A stretch of DNA of 64,000 nt, from positions 124,001-188,000 of the forward strand of contig JANXSF010000021.1 of the NCBI GenBank assembly GCA_025352795.1. Direction: 5' to 3'. The notes beneath the pieces were generated by a model that saw nothing but the letters and a program-made list of their open reading frames with translations, ran no database searches and was not told the origin of the DNA. A program made the translations under genes and the position numbers. Within the stretch, counting starts at the first letter, position 1, and the number at the start of each line of letters is the position of its first letter. Source of the DNA: Acidobacteriota bacterium. Its GTDB lineage: Bacteria > Acidobacteriota > Terriglobia > Bryobacterales > Bryobacteraceae. Positions 26,616 through 62,657 of the stretch are shown one piece after another.

Positions 26616-26709
26616 GGAAGCTAACCTTGGCCGGTGCTGGGCCTGGTCTTCAAAACCAGCGTGCGCTACTTTGTGGCGCGGTGGGTTCGACCCCCACTAG
26701 CTTCCGCCA
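26616..26709 (+). tRNA. selC: tRNA-Sec (anticodon UCA)
   Basis: 94 bases including GCCA. It shows every hallmark of bacterial tRNA-Sec: an 8-bp acceptor stem (GGAAGCTA with TAGCTTCC), a 6-bp D-stem around a four-base CGGT loop (CTTGGC-CGGT-GCTGGG), an anticodon arm CTGGT-CTTCAAA-ACCAG with anticodon TCA, a long variable arm (GCGCTAC-TTT-GTGGCGC) and a T-arm GTGGG-TTCGACC-CCCAC. The CGGT loop, the CTTCAAA anticodon loop and the GCCA end equal those of E. coli selC. Possible promoter boxes upstream are TTGTTA (26557) and TAAAAT (26603). It stands alone: selA/selB/selD do not adjoin. It decodes UGA as selenocysteine, for which the peroxiredoxin at 60820-61335 is a substrate. Confidence 0.97.
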
Positions 26710-39456: not shown

Positions 39457-40479
39457 TTGCAGACTATGGTGACAATTGCCGTAGACGCAATGGGCGGAGA
39501 TCATGCCCCTAAGGCGGAAGTTGAAGGGGCAATTAGAGCCGTGCGCCAGTACCCTGTCCAGGTGATCCTGGTTGGCAGGGAAGAAATTATTCGCCCCGAA
39601 CTGGATCATCACCCAGGTTGGAAAAGCCTACCCATCACCGTTGTGCATGCCAGTGAAGTGGTCACAATGGAAGATTCCGCCGGTAAATCGCTGCGCAGCA
39701 AGAAAGATTCCTCCATTCGAGTTGCCTGCCGTTTAGTGCGCGAAGGCCAAGCTCAAGGCGTGGTTTCCGCTGGCAATACCGGCGCTGTGATGGCCACCGC
39801 GAAAATGGTCCAAGGGGTTGTCCCCGGCGTTGATCGACCAGCATTAGCAACAGCATTTCCCACCCTTACAGGCAAGCCGGCAGTCATTGTGGATGTTGGT
39901 GCCAATGTGGATTGTAGCGCTGAAATGCTGGCCCAGTTCGCCTTGATGGGTCATCTGTACTCCAAGCTGATTTTCAAGGAAGAGCGACCGCGCGTCGGCA
40001 TTCTTTCTATCGGCGAAGAAGAACATAAGGGCAACGAACTCACCCGTACGGCCTCGGCATTACTCAAAACTATGCCCATCAATTTCATCGGGAACGTTGA
40101 GGGCCGCGACGTCTATTCAGGCCTTGCCGACGTCATTGTTTGCGATGGCTTCATCGGCAATGTGGCCTTGAAAGTCAGCGAAGGCCTAGTTGAAGTGATC
40201 AAGCACATTCTTAAAGAATCGCTGCAATCGACGATTTCCGGTCAGATTGGTGCTGTGCTTTCCAGATCTGCATTCAACAATTTCAAGAAACGTTTGGATT
40301 ACACTGAATACGGCGGGGCACCGTTGTTGGGCGTAAAAGGTGTGACGATCATCAGCCATGGTCGGTCCAATGCCAACGCCATGAAAAATGCAATTCGCGT
40401 TGCATCCGAATTTGCTAGTGAGCATCTGAATAAGATGCTACAAGACAACCTGGATCAATGGCGTAACGGATTGACGTGA
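39457..40479 (+). CDS. plsX: Phosphate acyltransferase PlsX
   Basis: 340 aa. It converts acyl-ACP to acyl phosphate for phospholipid synthesis. Family motifs are present: [10 protein letters not shown] near the start, [10 protein letters not shown] (about 103-112), DVGANVDC (about 147-154), [11 protein letters not shown] (about 229-239). The frame opens with TTG at 39457, with GGAG seven to eight bases before; an ATG three codons later (39466) is the alternative. The stop overlaps the dsbD start by 4 bp. In this window plsC-like acyltransferases occur far away, at 62.7-64 kb. Confidence 0.96.
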
Positions 40480-42350
40480 AATTCCTTCGTATTTTTGGCA
40501 TCATCGGGTTCGCCGCATCGCTTCAGGCACAGCCCCAGAATCCTGTCCAATGGGAACTAAGTCCGCAAGTTGCAAAAGTAGCCCCTGGTTCTGTTGTTAC
40601 CCTACACTTAAAAGCCAAGATCGACGCAGGTTGGCACCTCTATTCCATGACTACGCCCAAAGGCGGCGCGCCGGGTACGAAAATCACTGTTGCTGAAAAT
40701 CCATCGGTTACTTTTCAGAGGTTCTATCAACCCAAACCGGAATCGAGGCTGGATCCAAATTTTGGCGTGCAAACAGAAAGCTATGAGCACGCAACAGAGT
40801 TTCTGATTGAGGCAGTTGTTTCCGCCGATGCCGTTGCTGGTGCGCTGCCGGTGAAGGCTCAACTTCGCTATAGTGCCTGTTCGGAAACACAGTGTCTGCC
40901 TCAGCGGCGCTCCGCTGAGACAACTTTAACCATTGATCCCACCGCGCCCAAATCAACCGCGATCACGGCGCCACCTGAATATCAACTGGTGGACTTGAAC
41001 GTCAAGCCTGCCGAATCTTCTGCTCCGATACCTGCTGCTAAACCGGTTGCCCAGCCCCTGGCCCCATTCCTGTGGCTGGCCTTCGGGCTGGGACTTGCCT
41101 CCCTGTTTACGCCTTGCGTTTTCCCGATGATTCCGTTCACGGTAGGCGCTTTCCTGGATCAAAAAGAGGGTGCCTGGAAGCGAGCGGCTGTGTTCTGTTT
41201 GGGAATCGTTTTCATGTTTACAGCGCTGGGATTTGGCCTGACTTTACTGCTGGGCCCATTCGGCGTGAAAACTTTGAGCGCCAACCCCTGGGCAAACACT
41301 TTCACTGCGCTTATCTTCCTGGCTTTCGGGCTCAGCCTGTTGGGAGCCTTTGAGCTTACCTTGCCCTATGCGGTGGTCAATAAGATGAATGCAGCCTCGG
41401 GTCAAGGCGGCTATGTTGGCGCGTTGCTTGCCGGATTCACATTCACTCTGACTTCGTTTGCATGCGTTGGACCCTTCATGGGAACGTTGCTTGCCGCCAG
41501 CGCACAAGGGCCCAAGCTGCAACCAGTCTTGGGCATGGCTTCCTTCGCCTTTGGTTTGGCGCTGCCGTTCTTCTTTCTGGCACTGTTCCCTGGCGTCCTC
41601 CGCAAAATGCCTCGCAGTGGCGATTGGTTGATGCGCGTGAAAGTTGTCATGGGCTTTATCGTCCTGGCCTGGATGCTGAAGTACCTCAGTAATGTGGATG
41701 CGGTTCTCCAATTGGGCCTGCTGCCTCGGGAACGTTTTCTGGCATTCTGGATTGTTCTGTTCGCCCTTCCTGGAACTTACCTGTTGGGTTGGCTTCCCTT
41801 GGAAGGCATTGATCGGAACGAAAAAATGGGCGTGGCCCGTCTTTGTTTTGGTGCTGCATTCCTAATTTTTGCAGTCAGCCTGATTCCCGGCATGTTTGGT
41901 GGACAGTTGGCTAATTTGGATTCCATGGTTCCCGTCGCCACCCAAACATTAGGTTCCGGCGGCTCTACCAAATCGGAAGGTGCGCTGCAATTTATCAAAG
42001 ACGATTACGCTGGGGCTCTAGCGCAAGCCAAACAGCAAAACAAATTACTATTCGTCGAATTCACTGGCTACGCCTGCAGCAACTGCAAATGGATGAAGGC
42101 CAATATGTTCCCACGTCCTCAAATTCAGGCTGCCTTAAGTAAGCTGGTACTGGCCGACCTCTACACCGATGGTGCCGAACCGGTCAACGATCAGAACGCT
42201 AAAATGCAGGAATCCCGATTCCAAACAGTCGCCACTCCTTTGTATGTCATCCTCAACGGAGATGAAAAAGTGATCGCCACCTTCGCTGGGTCCACCAAAG
42301 ATACTGCTGAGTTCCTCAAATTCCTGCAATCAGGCCAGCCCGCACAATAA
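40476..42350 (+). CDS. dsbD: DsbD-like thiol:disulfide interchange protein
   Basis: 624 aa in three parts. A signal peptide and N-terminal DsbD-alpha-like domain carry a cysteine pair C135/C140 (CSETQCLPQ). The CcdA-type membrane region (about 195-480) has its redox cysteines in [11 protein letters not shown] (C214) and [10 protein letters not shown]. The C-terminal thioredoxin domain has the active site ACSNCKWMK (C534, C537). The protein passes electrons from cytoplasmic thioredoxin to periplasmic thiols, which could include the cytochrome and the peroxiredoxin made in this window (inference). It overlaps plsX by ATGA. Confidence 0.93.
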
Positions 42351-60762: not shown

Positions 60763-60799
60763 AAAAAAAGCCCGCCGTGGCCTGAGCCAGGACGGGCTT
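60763..60799 (-). terminator. Intrinsic terminator of the selenoprotein gene
   Basis: On the minus strand an interrupted stem (AAGCCCG...CGGGCTT with GGC-type inner pairs) is followed by seven T. It lies about 20 bases after the stop of the peroxiredoxin gene and confirms that the gene's end is at 60820. Confidence 0.88.
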
Positions 60800-60819: not shown

Positions 60820-61335
60820 TTAGGGTTTCTTGACGACCCTCCTGCAAGCTTCCTCAGAACCTGCCGCATCCAGTGCCGCTGAACCTTCAATGATCTCGAC
60901 AATCTTCCCGTCGGTGTCAATAATAAAGGTTGTCCGACTAAAGAATCCAGCCGGTAAAAGCACTCCATACTTCATCCCCGTGCCGCGCATATGATCACTC
61001 AACAATGGAAATGTCGCGCCCAGTTCTTTCGCCCAATGTGCCAACGTTGGTTGGTTGTCTGCTGACACGGCTAAGACCTTTACGTCCATTCCTTCAAATT
61101 TGGAGATACCAGCCTGGTATCCAGTTATTTCTTTTGTTCAACCACCGGTGAAAGCGAGCGGGAAAAATGCCAGCACTACTGGATTTTTGCCTTTGAATTG
61201 CGATAGCGTATACGTCTTGCTATCGGAACCGGTCAGGCTGAAATCCGGAGCTGAATCTCCCGGCTTCAGGGTGGTCTTGCCTGCTTGTCCAAAAAGGGCA
61301 AGCGAGGTGGTTAGCAAGAGCACTAATTTTTTCAT
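60820..61335 (-). CDS. prxU: Selenocysteine-containing exported peroxiredoxin (in-frame UGA read as Sec)
   Basis: 171 aa when the TGA at 61138-61140 is read as selenocysteine (U66); ordinary translation stops after 65 aa. A signal peptide ([18 protein letters not shown], residues 2-19) is followed by an AhpC/TSA domain. The peroxidatic motif PxxxTxxC is PLAFTGGU (P59, T63, U66) followed by TKE, and the conserved arginine is in [10 protein letters not shown] (R134). No cysteine follows at +5; C164 is the only cysteine. It reduces peroxides in the periplasm. Support: TGA exactly at the peroxidatic position, same frame before and after, SECIS-like hairpin 23 bases downstream, selC in this window, intact RBS (GAGG) and terminator. 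Related to the PrxU selenoproteins known in anaerobes. Confidence 0.95.
61105..61121 (-). promoter_or_regulatory. Bacterial SECIS-like hairpin after the UGA
   Basis: On the minus strand GATACCA-GGC-TGGTATC forms a perfect 7-bp stem with a GGC loop; the loop starts 24 bases after the UGA. Bacterial SECIS elements are expected about 16-37 bases from the UGA, with a short apical loop that has G in its first two positions; this hairpin fulfils both. SelB would bind it. Confidence 0.8.
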
Positions 61336-61406
61336 TTGTTCATAACCTCTGATAGGAAGCGTAACACAGCATCATCTGTCATCCTGATAGAAGCTGACTC
61401 AAGCCC

Positions 61407-62657
61407 ATGAATTATTTTGATTCTGTAGGATACCTATACTCTTTAGGCAATGAAATGCGCGGTGCCAAATTAGACCTGGATCGCATGCTTCTGCTGCTTG
61501 ATGCCATGGACCATCCGCAACGTCACGGACGCATAGTTCACGTTGCCGGTACCAATGGTAAAGGCTCAACCAGCGCCATGATCGCCTCCGGTTTGTGCGC
61601 CGCCGGATTGAAGACCGGGCTTTACACATCGCCTCACCTGCAGCAACCTACCGAACGAATCCGCATTAATGGCGTACCTGTTGGTCCCACTGAATTCTCC
61701 TCTGCCTTCGACGTCGTCCATCAAGCTGCGGAACGTCTGCTTGAATCCTGTGCTCTTGAAATTCACCCTTCCTATTTTGAAACCGTCACTCTAATGGCCT
61801 TCCATCTTTTTCGCAAGAACAATGTAGATGCTGCGGTGTATGAGGTCGGACTTGGCGGTCGTCTGGATGCAACCAATGTGGTCATCCCGGAAGTGGCCGT
61901 GATCACGCCTGTTGATTACGATCACGAACAATTTTTAGGCTCCAGTATCGAATCCATTACTGCAGAAAAAGCCGGCATTTTGAAAAGTGGACGGCATGCG
62001 GTCATTGCCAAACAAAACGATGTTGCGATGAACGTGATTCAGCAGCGCGCCAGTCAATTGGGCTGCCCATTACACCTCACTCAGCGTTGGATTCCTAACG
62101 ATGTGCAACTGGATGAACGTGGCTGCCGCTATCGGTTTGAGAACCTGCACATTACTTGCCCCCTGGCTGGCGACCATCAATTGGATAACAGCATTACCGC
62201 TGCGTTGGCTTTACGCGTAATGGGCGTGGACGATAGCGCCATAGGGCAGGGCATTGCCTCCGTTGCCTGGCCAGGTCGCCTGGAACAAGTGTGCGACTCA
62301 CCGCGCATCATTGTGGATGGCGCTCACAATCCCGCCGGGGCTCGAGCCTTAGCTGATTACATCAAGCGATTTTTCAACAACAAGAAAATCGGCATCATCT
62401 TTGGTGCCATGCGTGACAAATCCATTGACGAATTAGCGATAACGCTTTTCCCACTGGCTCATAAATTGATTCTCACCGCGCCCAACATACCACGCGCTTT
62501 ACGACCCGAAGCGCTGCTGGAATTTTCATCCAATACCAACGTATCTATCCATCCCCGCCTGTCCGATGCCATCGCCGCGATTGCCGATGTGGATGTTACT
62601 TTTATCACCGGATCACTTTATTTAGTGGGTGAAGCACGCTCACTCCTCATACAATAG
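61407..62657 (+). CDS. folC: Bifunctional folylpolyglutamate synthase / dihydrofolate synthase
   Basis: 416 aa Mur-ligase-type enzyme. P-loop VAGTNGKGSTSAMIASGL (about 47-64), the folate loop TSPHLQQPTERIRINGVPV (about 73-91), VYEVGLGGRLDATNVV (about 144-159) and C-terminal VDGAHNPAGARAL (about 301-313). It adds glutamates to folate and makes dihydrofolate from dihydropteroate. The gene is transcribed away from the selenoprotein gene. It is directly followed by two acyltransferase genes, which may share its transcript. Confidence 0.95.
   Translation: MNYFDSVGYLYSLGNEMRGAKLDLDRMLLLLDAMDHPQRHGRIVHVAGTNGKGSTSAMIASGLCAAGLKTGLYTSPHLQQPTERIRINGVPVGPTEFSSAFDVVHQAAERLLESCALEIHPSYFETVTLMAFHLFRKNNVDAAVYEVGLGGRLDATNVVIPEVAVITPVDYDHEQFLGSSIESITAEKAGILKSGRHAVIAKQNDVAMNVIQQRASQLGCPLHLTQRWIPNDVQLDERGCRYRFENLHITCPLAGDHQLDNSITAALALRVMGVDDSAIGQGIASVAWPGRLEQVCDSPRIIVDGAHNPAGARALADYIKRFFNNKKIGIIFGAMRDKSIDELAITLFPLAHKLILTAPNIPRALRPEALLEFSSNTNVSIHPRLSDAIAAIADVDVTFITGSLYLVGEARSLLIQ

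Follow-up and report, generated by a model that had tools for sequence, protein, structure and literature searches.

Background

Peroxiredoxins that carry selenocysteine (Sec) are already known, namely PrxU and the peroxiredoxin (Prx) family with the TxxU motif, according to the accessible parts of the papers cited here. PrxU of Eubacterium acidaminophilum (NCBIfam model NF040737) has Sec at the peroxidatic position within TxxU (PMC13188914, PMC9312934), and its source is a strict anaerobe, judging by the title of a 2001 paper cited in PMC13188914. The surveyed Sec Prx family comprised 12 proteins in 2006 (PMC1794560) and 91 proteins in 78 organisms in 2016 (PMC5029168). Prx-SUH (NF045827) is also a Sec thiol peroxidase, with the Sec motif CxxU (PMC13188914). 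Among Cys enzymes, AhpE of Mycobacterium tuberculosis (Rv2238c) has the active site PLAFTGxC, and the AhpE group of the Prx atlas is described by the signature P-x-A-F-T/S-x-x-C (PMC5302317). As for Acidobacteriota, the 2006 survey reports 4 selenoproteins in 3 families (PMC1794560) and deep-Sep reports 3 known selenoproteins in Occallatibacter riparius (PMC12013277), none of them named in the accessible parts of either paper.

The gene described here lies in a stretch of 64,000 nucleotides from an acidobacterial genome, hereafter the window. It very probably encodes an exported AhpE-like peroxiredoxin, in which the peroxidatic residue Sec66 would be decoded via a downstream hairpin and resolved by Cys164 or by an outside thiol.

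The gene and its surroundings

The original prediction had described a single minus-strand frame with a TGA as its sole interruption, and both the coordinates and the frame (Table 1) are correct. Gene calling indeed yields two pieces, which appear in the plain list of open reading frames as 61138-61335 (65 aa) and 60820-61089 (89 aa).

Table 1. Features of the peroxiredoxin locus and of related genes in the window (positions are those of the window)
Feature	Position	Strand	Basis or remark
Sec-containing peroxiredoxin gene	60820..61335	-	171 sense codons + TAA, TGA at codon 66
In-frame TGA, codon 66, read as selenocysteine (putative peroxidatic residue)	61138..61140	-	TGA or Cys codon here in relatives
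SECIS-like hairpin GGATACCAGGCTGGTATCT, 8 pairs, GGC triloop	61104..61122	-	fold and covariation; 15 nt between TGA and hairpin
Codon of Cys164, C-terminal Cys, candidate resolving residue	60844..60846	-	invariant, 34/34
Likely N-terminal export signal	61282..61335 (end approximate)	-	two basic residues, hydrophobic core of 2.15 (Kyte-Doolittle) over 8 residues
AGAGG, Shine-Dalgarno-like, 10 nt 5' of ATG	61346..61350	-	read from sequence
Terminator-like hairpin with T run, 3' of the TAA of the full-length ORF	60768..60783	-	consensus match only
Divergent neighbour gene, Mur-ligase family	61407..62657	+	profile match; adjoins the gene in the sister species too
tRNA-Sec (selC), anticodon UCA	26616..26705	+	Rfam 67.6 bits, gathering score 47; ARAGORN
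DsbD-type thiol:disulfide interchange protein	40476..42350	+	Pfam DsbD_TM, DsbD_N, Thioredoxin_7

Regarding flanking signals, the peroxiredoxin region contains 4 terminator-like consensus matches versus 1.1 expected, and a second match on the strand of the gene, at 61182-61170, falls within the ORF before the TGA. The promoter scan of the same region gave a single match, on the opposite strand, versus 1.2 expected. The Mur-ligase neighbour, which by our reading is folylpolyglutamate synthase-like, also stands beside the Sec peroxiredoxin at L025 and L054 of the sister species (protein 70% identical). Among the 104 loci considered below this adjacency is seen in the sister species only, many loci having too little flank to tell. 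The nearest relatives of the window peroxiredoxin, on which the naming of the phylum rests, carry the names Acidobacteria bacterium (77% identical) and Bryobacteraceae.

Distribution among relatives

The set of relatives consists of 61 genomes, i.e., the source genome and 60 others from its genus, family, order, and class. The TGA form with a C-terminal Cys is found in 45 of them, 6 have the Cys form only (G014, G016, G026, G027, G033, and G053), and 10 have no full family member. Nine of these 10 were assigned by match strength (best E-value 3.9e-18 or weaker), while the tenth, G058, was read and carries TGA peroxiredoxins without the C-terminal Cys (L090-L092). Both forms occur together in 3 genomes: the source genome (G000), G001, and G044.

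According to the codon at the peroxidatic place, the 104 loci divide into 92 with TGA, 10 with TGC, and 2 with TGT; since loci are best or TGA-flagged matches, these counts do not represent an unbiased rate. Twelve loci, of which 9 have TGA and 3 a Cys codon, were set aside because they do not belong to the family; one of them, L097, is a misplaced alignment. The 92 family loci thus comprise 83 with TGA and 9 with a Cys codon, and the comparison with relatives that the original prediction had proposed reveals no scattered stops before the end of the frame. The 83 family TGA rows correspond to 78 distinct nucleotide segments, and the protein of L054 is identical to that of L025. Loci L003-L024 and L058-L062 are left out of the counts, and L054-L057 come from named contigs.

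A larger sample of 396 genomes from the phylum contains 137 with a match at an E-value of 1e-20, and the 29 top-ranking loci among these (L103-L131, ten further family codes) all have TGA and the C-terminal Cys (29/29). Judging by these sequences, the same peroxiredoxin gene is widespread in Acidobacteriota.

Other TGA-bearing peroxiredoxin sequences were noticed in the relatives. In G005 the Sec gene adjoins another stretch that resembles a peroxiredoxin (L063, G005:C8:143199-143540), and the match to it contains one TGA and one TAG. In L096 and L098-L102 the peroxidatic codon is TGA (DTPG-U or NTPG-U), and some of these loci also encode a Cys at +5; by our reading they are BCP/PrxQ-type peroxiredoxins, and possibly further Sec proteins of the phylum.

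Protein family and fold

With the TGA translated as Cys, the protein matches AhpC-TSA (PF00578, 1e-32) and Redoxin (PF08534, 1.3e-25) of Pfam over residues 24-152. Its active site reads PLAFTGGU, followed by TKE, and in the alignment with M. tuberculosis AhpE residue 66 falls on the peroxidatic Cys, in agreement with the original prediction. The signature P-x-A-F-T-x-x-U (T or S) and Arg134, presumably the distal Arg of the peroxiredoxin active site, are conserved or nearly so in 34 aligned proteins.

The AlphaFold2 model, built on 34 proteins of the window and the loci, has pLDDT of 88.7 and pTM of 0.83, being less sure at residues 61-70 (mean pLDDT 73). The top structure match is M. tuberculosis AhpE with Z of 25.2, rmsd of 1.5, 150 aligned residues, and 35% identity (Foldseek, VIA-align); matches within 1 Z of it, Sulfolobus Bcp4 and Bcp1 as well as BcpB among them, count as tied. 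By sequence and model, the active site and the fold appear nearest to AhpE. We call the protein AhpE-like rather than AhpE because its Cys164 is invariant, whereas the AhpE subfamily is 1-Cys.

As for the NCBIfam models, PrxU gives 56.5 bits for the window protein versus a cut-off of 270, and Prx-SUH gives 22.2 bits versus 298. All 34 aligned members match the PrxU model at an E-value of 0.001 or better (best 2.9e-23). Membership of PrxU and of the other matched NCBIfam peroxiredoxin models is rejected, all scores being below the cut-offs.

Cys164 and the catalytic cycle

The original prediction had noted that a Cys at +5 is missing and had proposed a one-Sec enzyme. The absence of that Cys is borne out by the window protein; Cys164 near the C-terminus was overlooked. 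None of the 34 aligned proteins lacks Cys164, although these 28 TGA forms and 6 Cys forms are 45-78% identical to the window protein. At a spacing of 97-105 residues past the peroxidatic codon, a Cys is encoded by 92 of the 104 loci. The peroxiredoxin is therefore not simply a one-Sec enzyme, as the conserved Cys near its C-terminus could be the resolving residue. In the AlphaFold2 model Cys164 sits in the last helix (158-169). In the structure match with human peroxiredoxin 2 (1qmv), the last residue of the model, 171, is paired with residue 167. Cys164 therefore comes earlier than Cys172, the resolving Cys of the human enzyme, a point against resolution by Cys164.

The cycle that these features suggest would run as follows. 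SelB with Sec-tRNA-Sec would bind the hairpin just 3' of the UGA and decode the UGA as Sec66, both the machinery and the hairpin being present at the sequence level. By analogy with the family, Sec66, in a PxAFTGGU pocket with Thr63 and Arg134, would attack the hydroperoxide and become selenenic acid. The selenenic acid could be resolved most simply by Cys164, within or between subunits; that Cys164 forms a selenenylsulfide with oxidised Sec66 is a proposal for which we see an even chance. Alternatively, an outside thiol could resolve it. An envelope thioredoxin-like partner, perhaps fed by DsbD, might then restore the reduced state.

The most serious alternative is that Sec66 alone does the chemistry, with an outside thiol reducing the selenenic acid and Cys164 being structural or unrelated. 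The nearest structure is that of a 1-Cys enzyme, AhpE, the +5 position has no Cys, and Cys164 is placed in the last helix of the fold, all of which would suit such an enzyme. Against it stand the invariance of Cys164 despite identities to the window protein of only 45-78%, and the Cys at a similar distance in most of the loci. We regard this alternative as plausible, if somewhat doubtful; overall, the one-Sec enzyme and the Sec-Cys cycle are about equally likely.

An envelope thiol-disulfide oxidoreductase, or some other redox role than that of a peroxidase, is improbable. The window protein is probably exported and gives weak profile matches to the ResA and TlpA models, below their cut-offs, but it has no CxxC or UxxC motif, the peroxiredoxin signature and Arg134 are retained, and the top-ranked structures are all peroxiredoxins, though of different types.

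Reading of the TGA codon

Judging from the comparisons of sequence, the TGA is almost certainly a selenocysteine codon. Its position is not a matter of chance, because 92 of the 104 loci share the codon and 45 of the 61 genomes have both TGA and the C-terminal Cys. In the eight pairs compared, non-synonymous change stays much lower than synonymous change whether upstream or downstream of the TGA, with synonymous sites near saturation in some pairs. For L001-L025, pN and pS are 0.097 and 0.507 before the TGA, and 0.164 and 0.686 after it. Purifying selection thus acts beyond the TGA, which would not be expected if the gene ended there.

TGA is also an ordinary stop in the window, where it ends 13 of the 36 open stretches longer than 250 aa, and a true stop in a dead gene or one created by a sequencing error would agree with this usage. 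Such a reading is very improbable and was rejected, as the same codon is TGA in relatives, purifying selection persists past it, and the downstream hairpin is conserved. Decoding as another residue, e.g., Trp or Cys by a suppressor tRNA, is just as improbable and was likewise rejected: the one tRNA found in the window (anticodon UCA) is tRNA-Sec, the 92 family loci show only TGA, TGC, or TGT, TGA functions elsewhere as a stop, and nothing was found in favour.

SECIS-like hairpin

The hairpin downstream of the TGA fits a bacterial SECIS element, as it lies just 3' of the TGA and has a G in the apical loop. Its support is comparative, and the stretch in the window folds no better than shuffled sequences (single-sequence fold of 66 nt of the window gene, z of -0.13). 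Among the 83 family TGA genes, all five upper pairs form in 70, four in 11, three in one (L120), and one in one (L126). Of the alignment cells in the stem, 95.9% are paired, versus 13.3-55.1% with the partner slid by 1-3.

Covariation is most visible at pair 23-31, which in the 78 distinct segments is C-G in 37, U-A in 37, U-G in 3, and G-A in 1; at the neighbouring pair, 2 segments have U-A instead of A-U. In terms of codons, the silent third base of Tyr (TAC/TAT) tracks Gly or Asp three codons on, with TAT-GAT in 39 and TAC-GGT in 37 of the 83 genes (Fisher p of 2e-19, relatedness ignored). The control on a tree, built with a quick method and SH-aLRT supports, has 3 supported independent pairs, of which a mean of 1.8 agree, 0 oppose, and 1.2 show no difference, and it cannot reach significance. 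Statistics without relatedness overstate the covariation, since only these 3 pairs exist. The outgroup of the tree is four set-aside rows, which are not one side of a branch, and L090 and L092 fall inside the family on long branches.

Codon usage in the hairpin is also distinct. The wobble base is T in 112 of 114 Ala/Ser/Gly-box codons of the hairpin versus 412 of 2957 in the remainder of these genes, and in 44 of 47 Asp codons versus 321 of 802.

Sec machinery and other Sec genes

The source genome (6.05 Mb, 140 contigs, 96.6% complete) contains selA, selB, and selD according to profile search, with scores of 493, 387, and 365.5 bits versus cut-offs of 268, 242, and 125, respectively. The original prediction had made its case depend on these genes, and all three are there together with tRNA-Sec.

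Across the relatives, selB was accepted at E-values up to 1e-60 and tRNA-Sec at 60 bits or more, a limit set by us since at the search's own E-value limit the tRNA-Sec model matches all 14 control genomes too. At these limits 43 of the 45 TGA-form genomes have selB or tRNA-Sec and 37 have both; the 2 with neither are assemblies 80% and 64% complete. Two genomes of other kinds are also below both limits: G024 (99% complete, no family member) and G053 (93%, Cys form). Among the 61 genomes, those with the TGA form do not have Sec machinery significantly more often than the others (43 with and 2 without, versus 13 and 3; Fisher p of 0.11), because 56 of the 61 have machinery at the limits used.

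Two other genes of the source genome carry an in-frame TGA. In selD (L021, G000:C79:76278-77201) it is near the start (AAG-U-ASK), with a hairpin downstream. A molybdopterin enzyme (L134, from G000:C12:57453 onward, on the contig of the window) has it in RL-U-HGPT; by our reading this is a formate dehydrogenase alpha subunit, scoring 185 bits to TIGR01591, below the cut-off of that model. Sec decoding would therefore serve at least 3 genes, and the view that the peroxiredoxin and SelD are the sole Sec proteins of the genome was dropped once the formate dehydrogenase-like gene had been found. The hairpins of selD and of the formate dehydrogenase-like gene have a top like that of the peroxiredoxin hairpin, namely a triloop starting with G and closed by A-U (GGU and GUC, with GGC in the peroxiredoxin). 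Counted from the T of the TGA, this G is 22-26 bases away. The formate dehydrogenase-like hairpin forms when 13-26 nt are folded, while a 40-nt fold prefers another pairing.

Exchange of Sec and Cys

The source genome also encodes a Cys-form paralogue (L002, G000:C12:53497-54009), which is 68% identical to the Sec form, has no hairpin, and lies ~131 kb away from it and ~3.4 kb from L134. The sister species has a corresponding pair of genes, with which the two genes of the source genome cluster in the tree. Sec and Cys must have replaced one another at least 7 times on this tree, of which 3 replacements are forced by supported branches; it does not give their direction.

Among the 9 Cys-form genes, 8 form 0-4 of the five hairpin pairs, and L029 forms all 5, with TACCAGGCTGGTATT; its genome, G027, retains selB and tRNA-Sec. 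As the hairpin is kept behind a Cys codon, the sequence suggests that L029 changed recently from Sec to Cys and that its hairpin is a remnant SECIS. PMC1794560 describes such remnants for two other families, FdhA and HesB-like proteins, and the table of that survey gives for Prx 5 Cys-to-Sec events and no Sec-to-Cys event, as far as its accessible part goes.

Export, electron supply, and oxygen

Judged by hydropathy, the peroxiredoxin is likely exported. The N-terminus, where the original prediction had seen a signal peptide, has a basic start and a hydrophobic core, and of the 92 family members 86 exceed a simple hydropathy threshold (1.6, set by us). Start codons were picked by our own rule, which may account for some of the 6 failures.

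A DsbD-like gene had been named as a possible route of recycling, and Pfam confirms the identity of this gene (Table 1). Its product might be an envelope source of electrons for the peroxiredoxin. The organism had also been called aerobic; three COX1-family genes in its genome make an oxygen-respiring life likely, without being proof of it.

Taken together, these points could describe an exported Sec-Cys peroxiredoxin across Acidobacteriota, in which Cys164 resolves Sec66, a DsbD relay recycles the enzyme, and repeated Sec-to-Cys reversions leave SECIS remnants. As a whole this picture falls a little short of probable. If true, it would mean that oxygen-respiring bacteria employ Sec against peroxides beyond the cytoplasm.

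Comparison with known systems

In our searches of the open-access literature we found no acidobacterial or AhpE-type Sec peroxiredoxin, nor an exported AhpE-like subfamily with a C-terminal Cys. The window protein shares the active site and the fold with M. tuberculosis AhpE, and its P-x-A-F-T-x-x-U matches the signature of the AhpE group. In contrast to AhpE, which structure titles file as 1-Cys, it would have Sec in place of Cys, is likely exported, and has an invariant C-terminal Cys. Compared with typical 2-Cys peroxiredoxins (AhpC/Prx1), this Cys is located in the last helix, before the arm that bears their resolving Cys.

Among Sec enzymes, the gene resembles PrxU in having Sec at the peroxidatic position within TxxU, but it scores far below the cut-off of the PrxU model. 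Prx-SUH is likewise a Sec thiol peroxidase, with a different Sec motif and an even lower score. As for the surveyed Sec Prx family, the likeness is PF00578 with TxxU, and acidobacterial genes may well be counted there, although the accessible parts of PMC1794560 and PMC5029168 name no acidobacterial Prx.

Standard gene calling halves the enzyme, and annotation may thus easily overlook a means of peroxide defence that is conserved throughout a phylum. The natural Sec and Cys versions of one enzyme, found even within one genome, offer a test of what selenium gains. In contrast to the Prx entry in the table of PMC1794560, which in its accessible part has no Sec-to-Cys event, L029 with its hairpin behind a Cys codon is a likely case of such a change. 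According to the same survey, the Sec forms of Prx and HesB-like proteins are disfavoured by oxygen, an idea to which the acidobacterial Sec peroxiredoxin would run counter.
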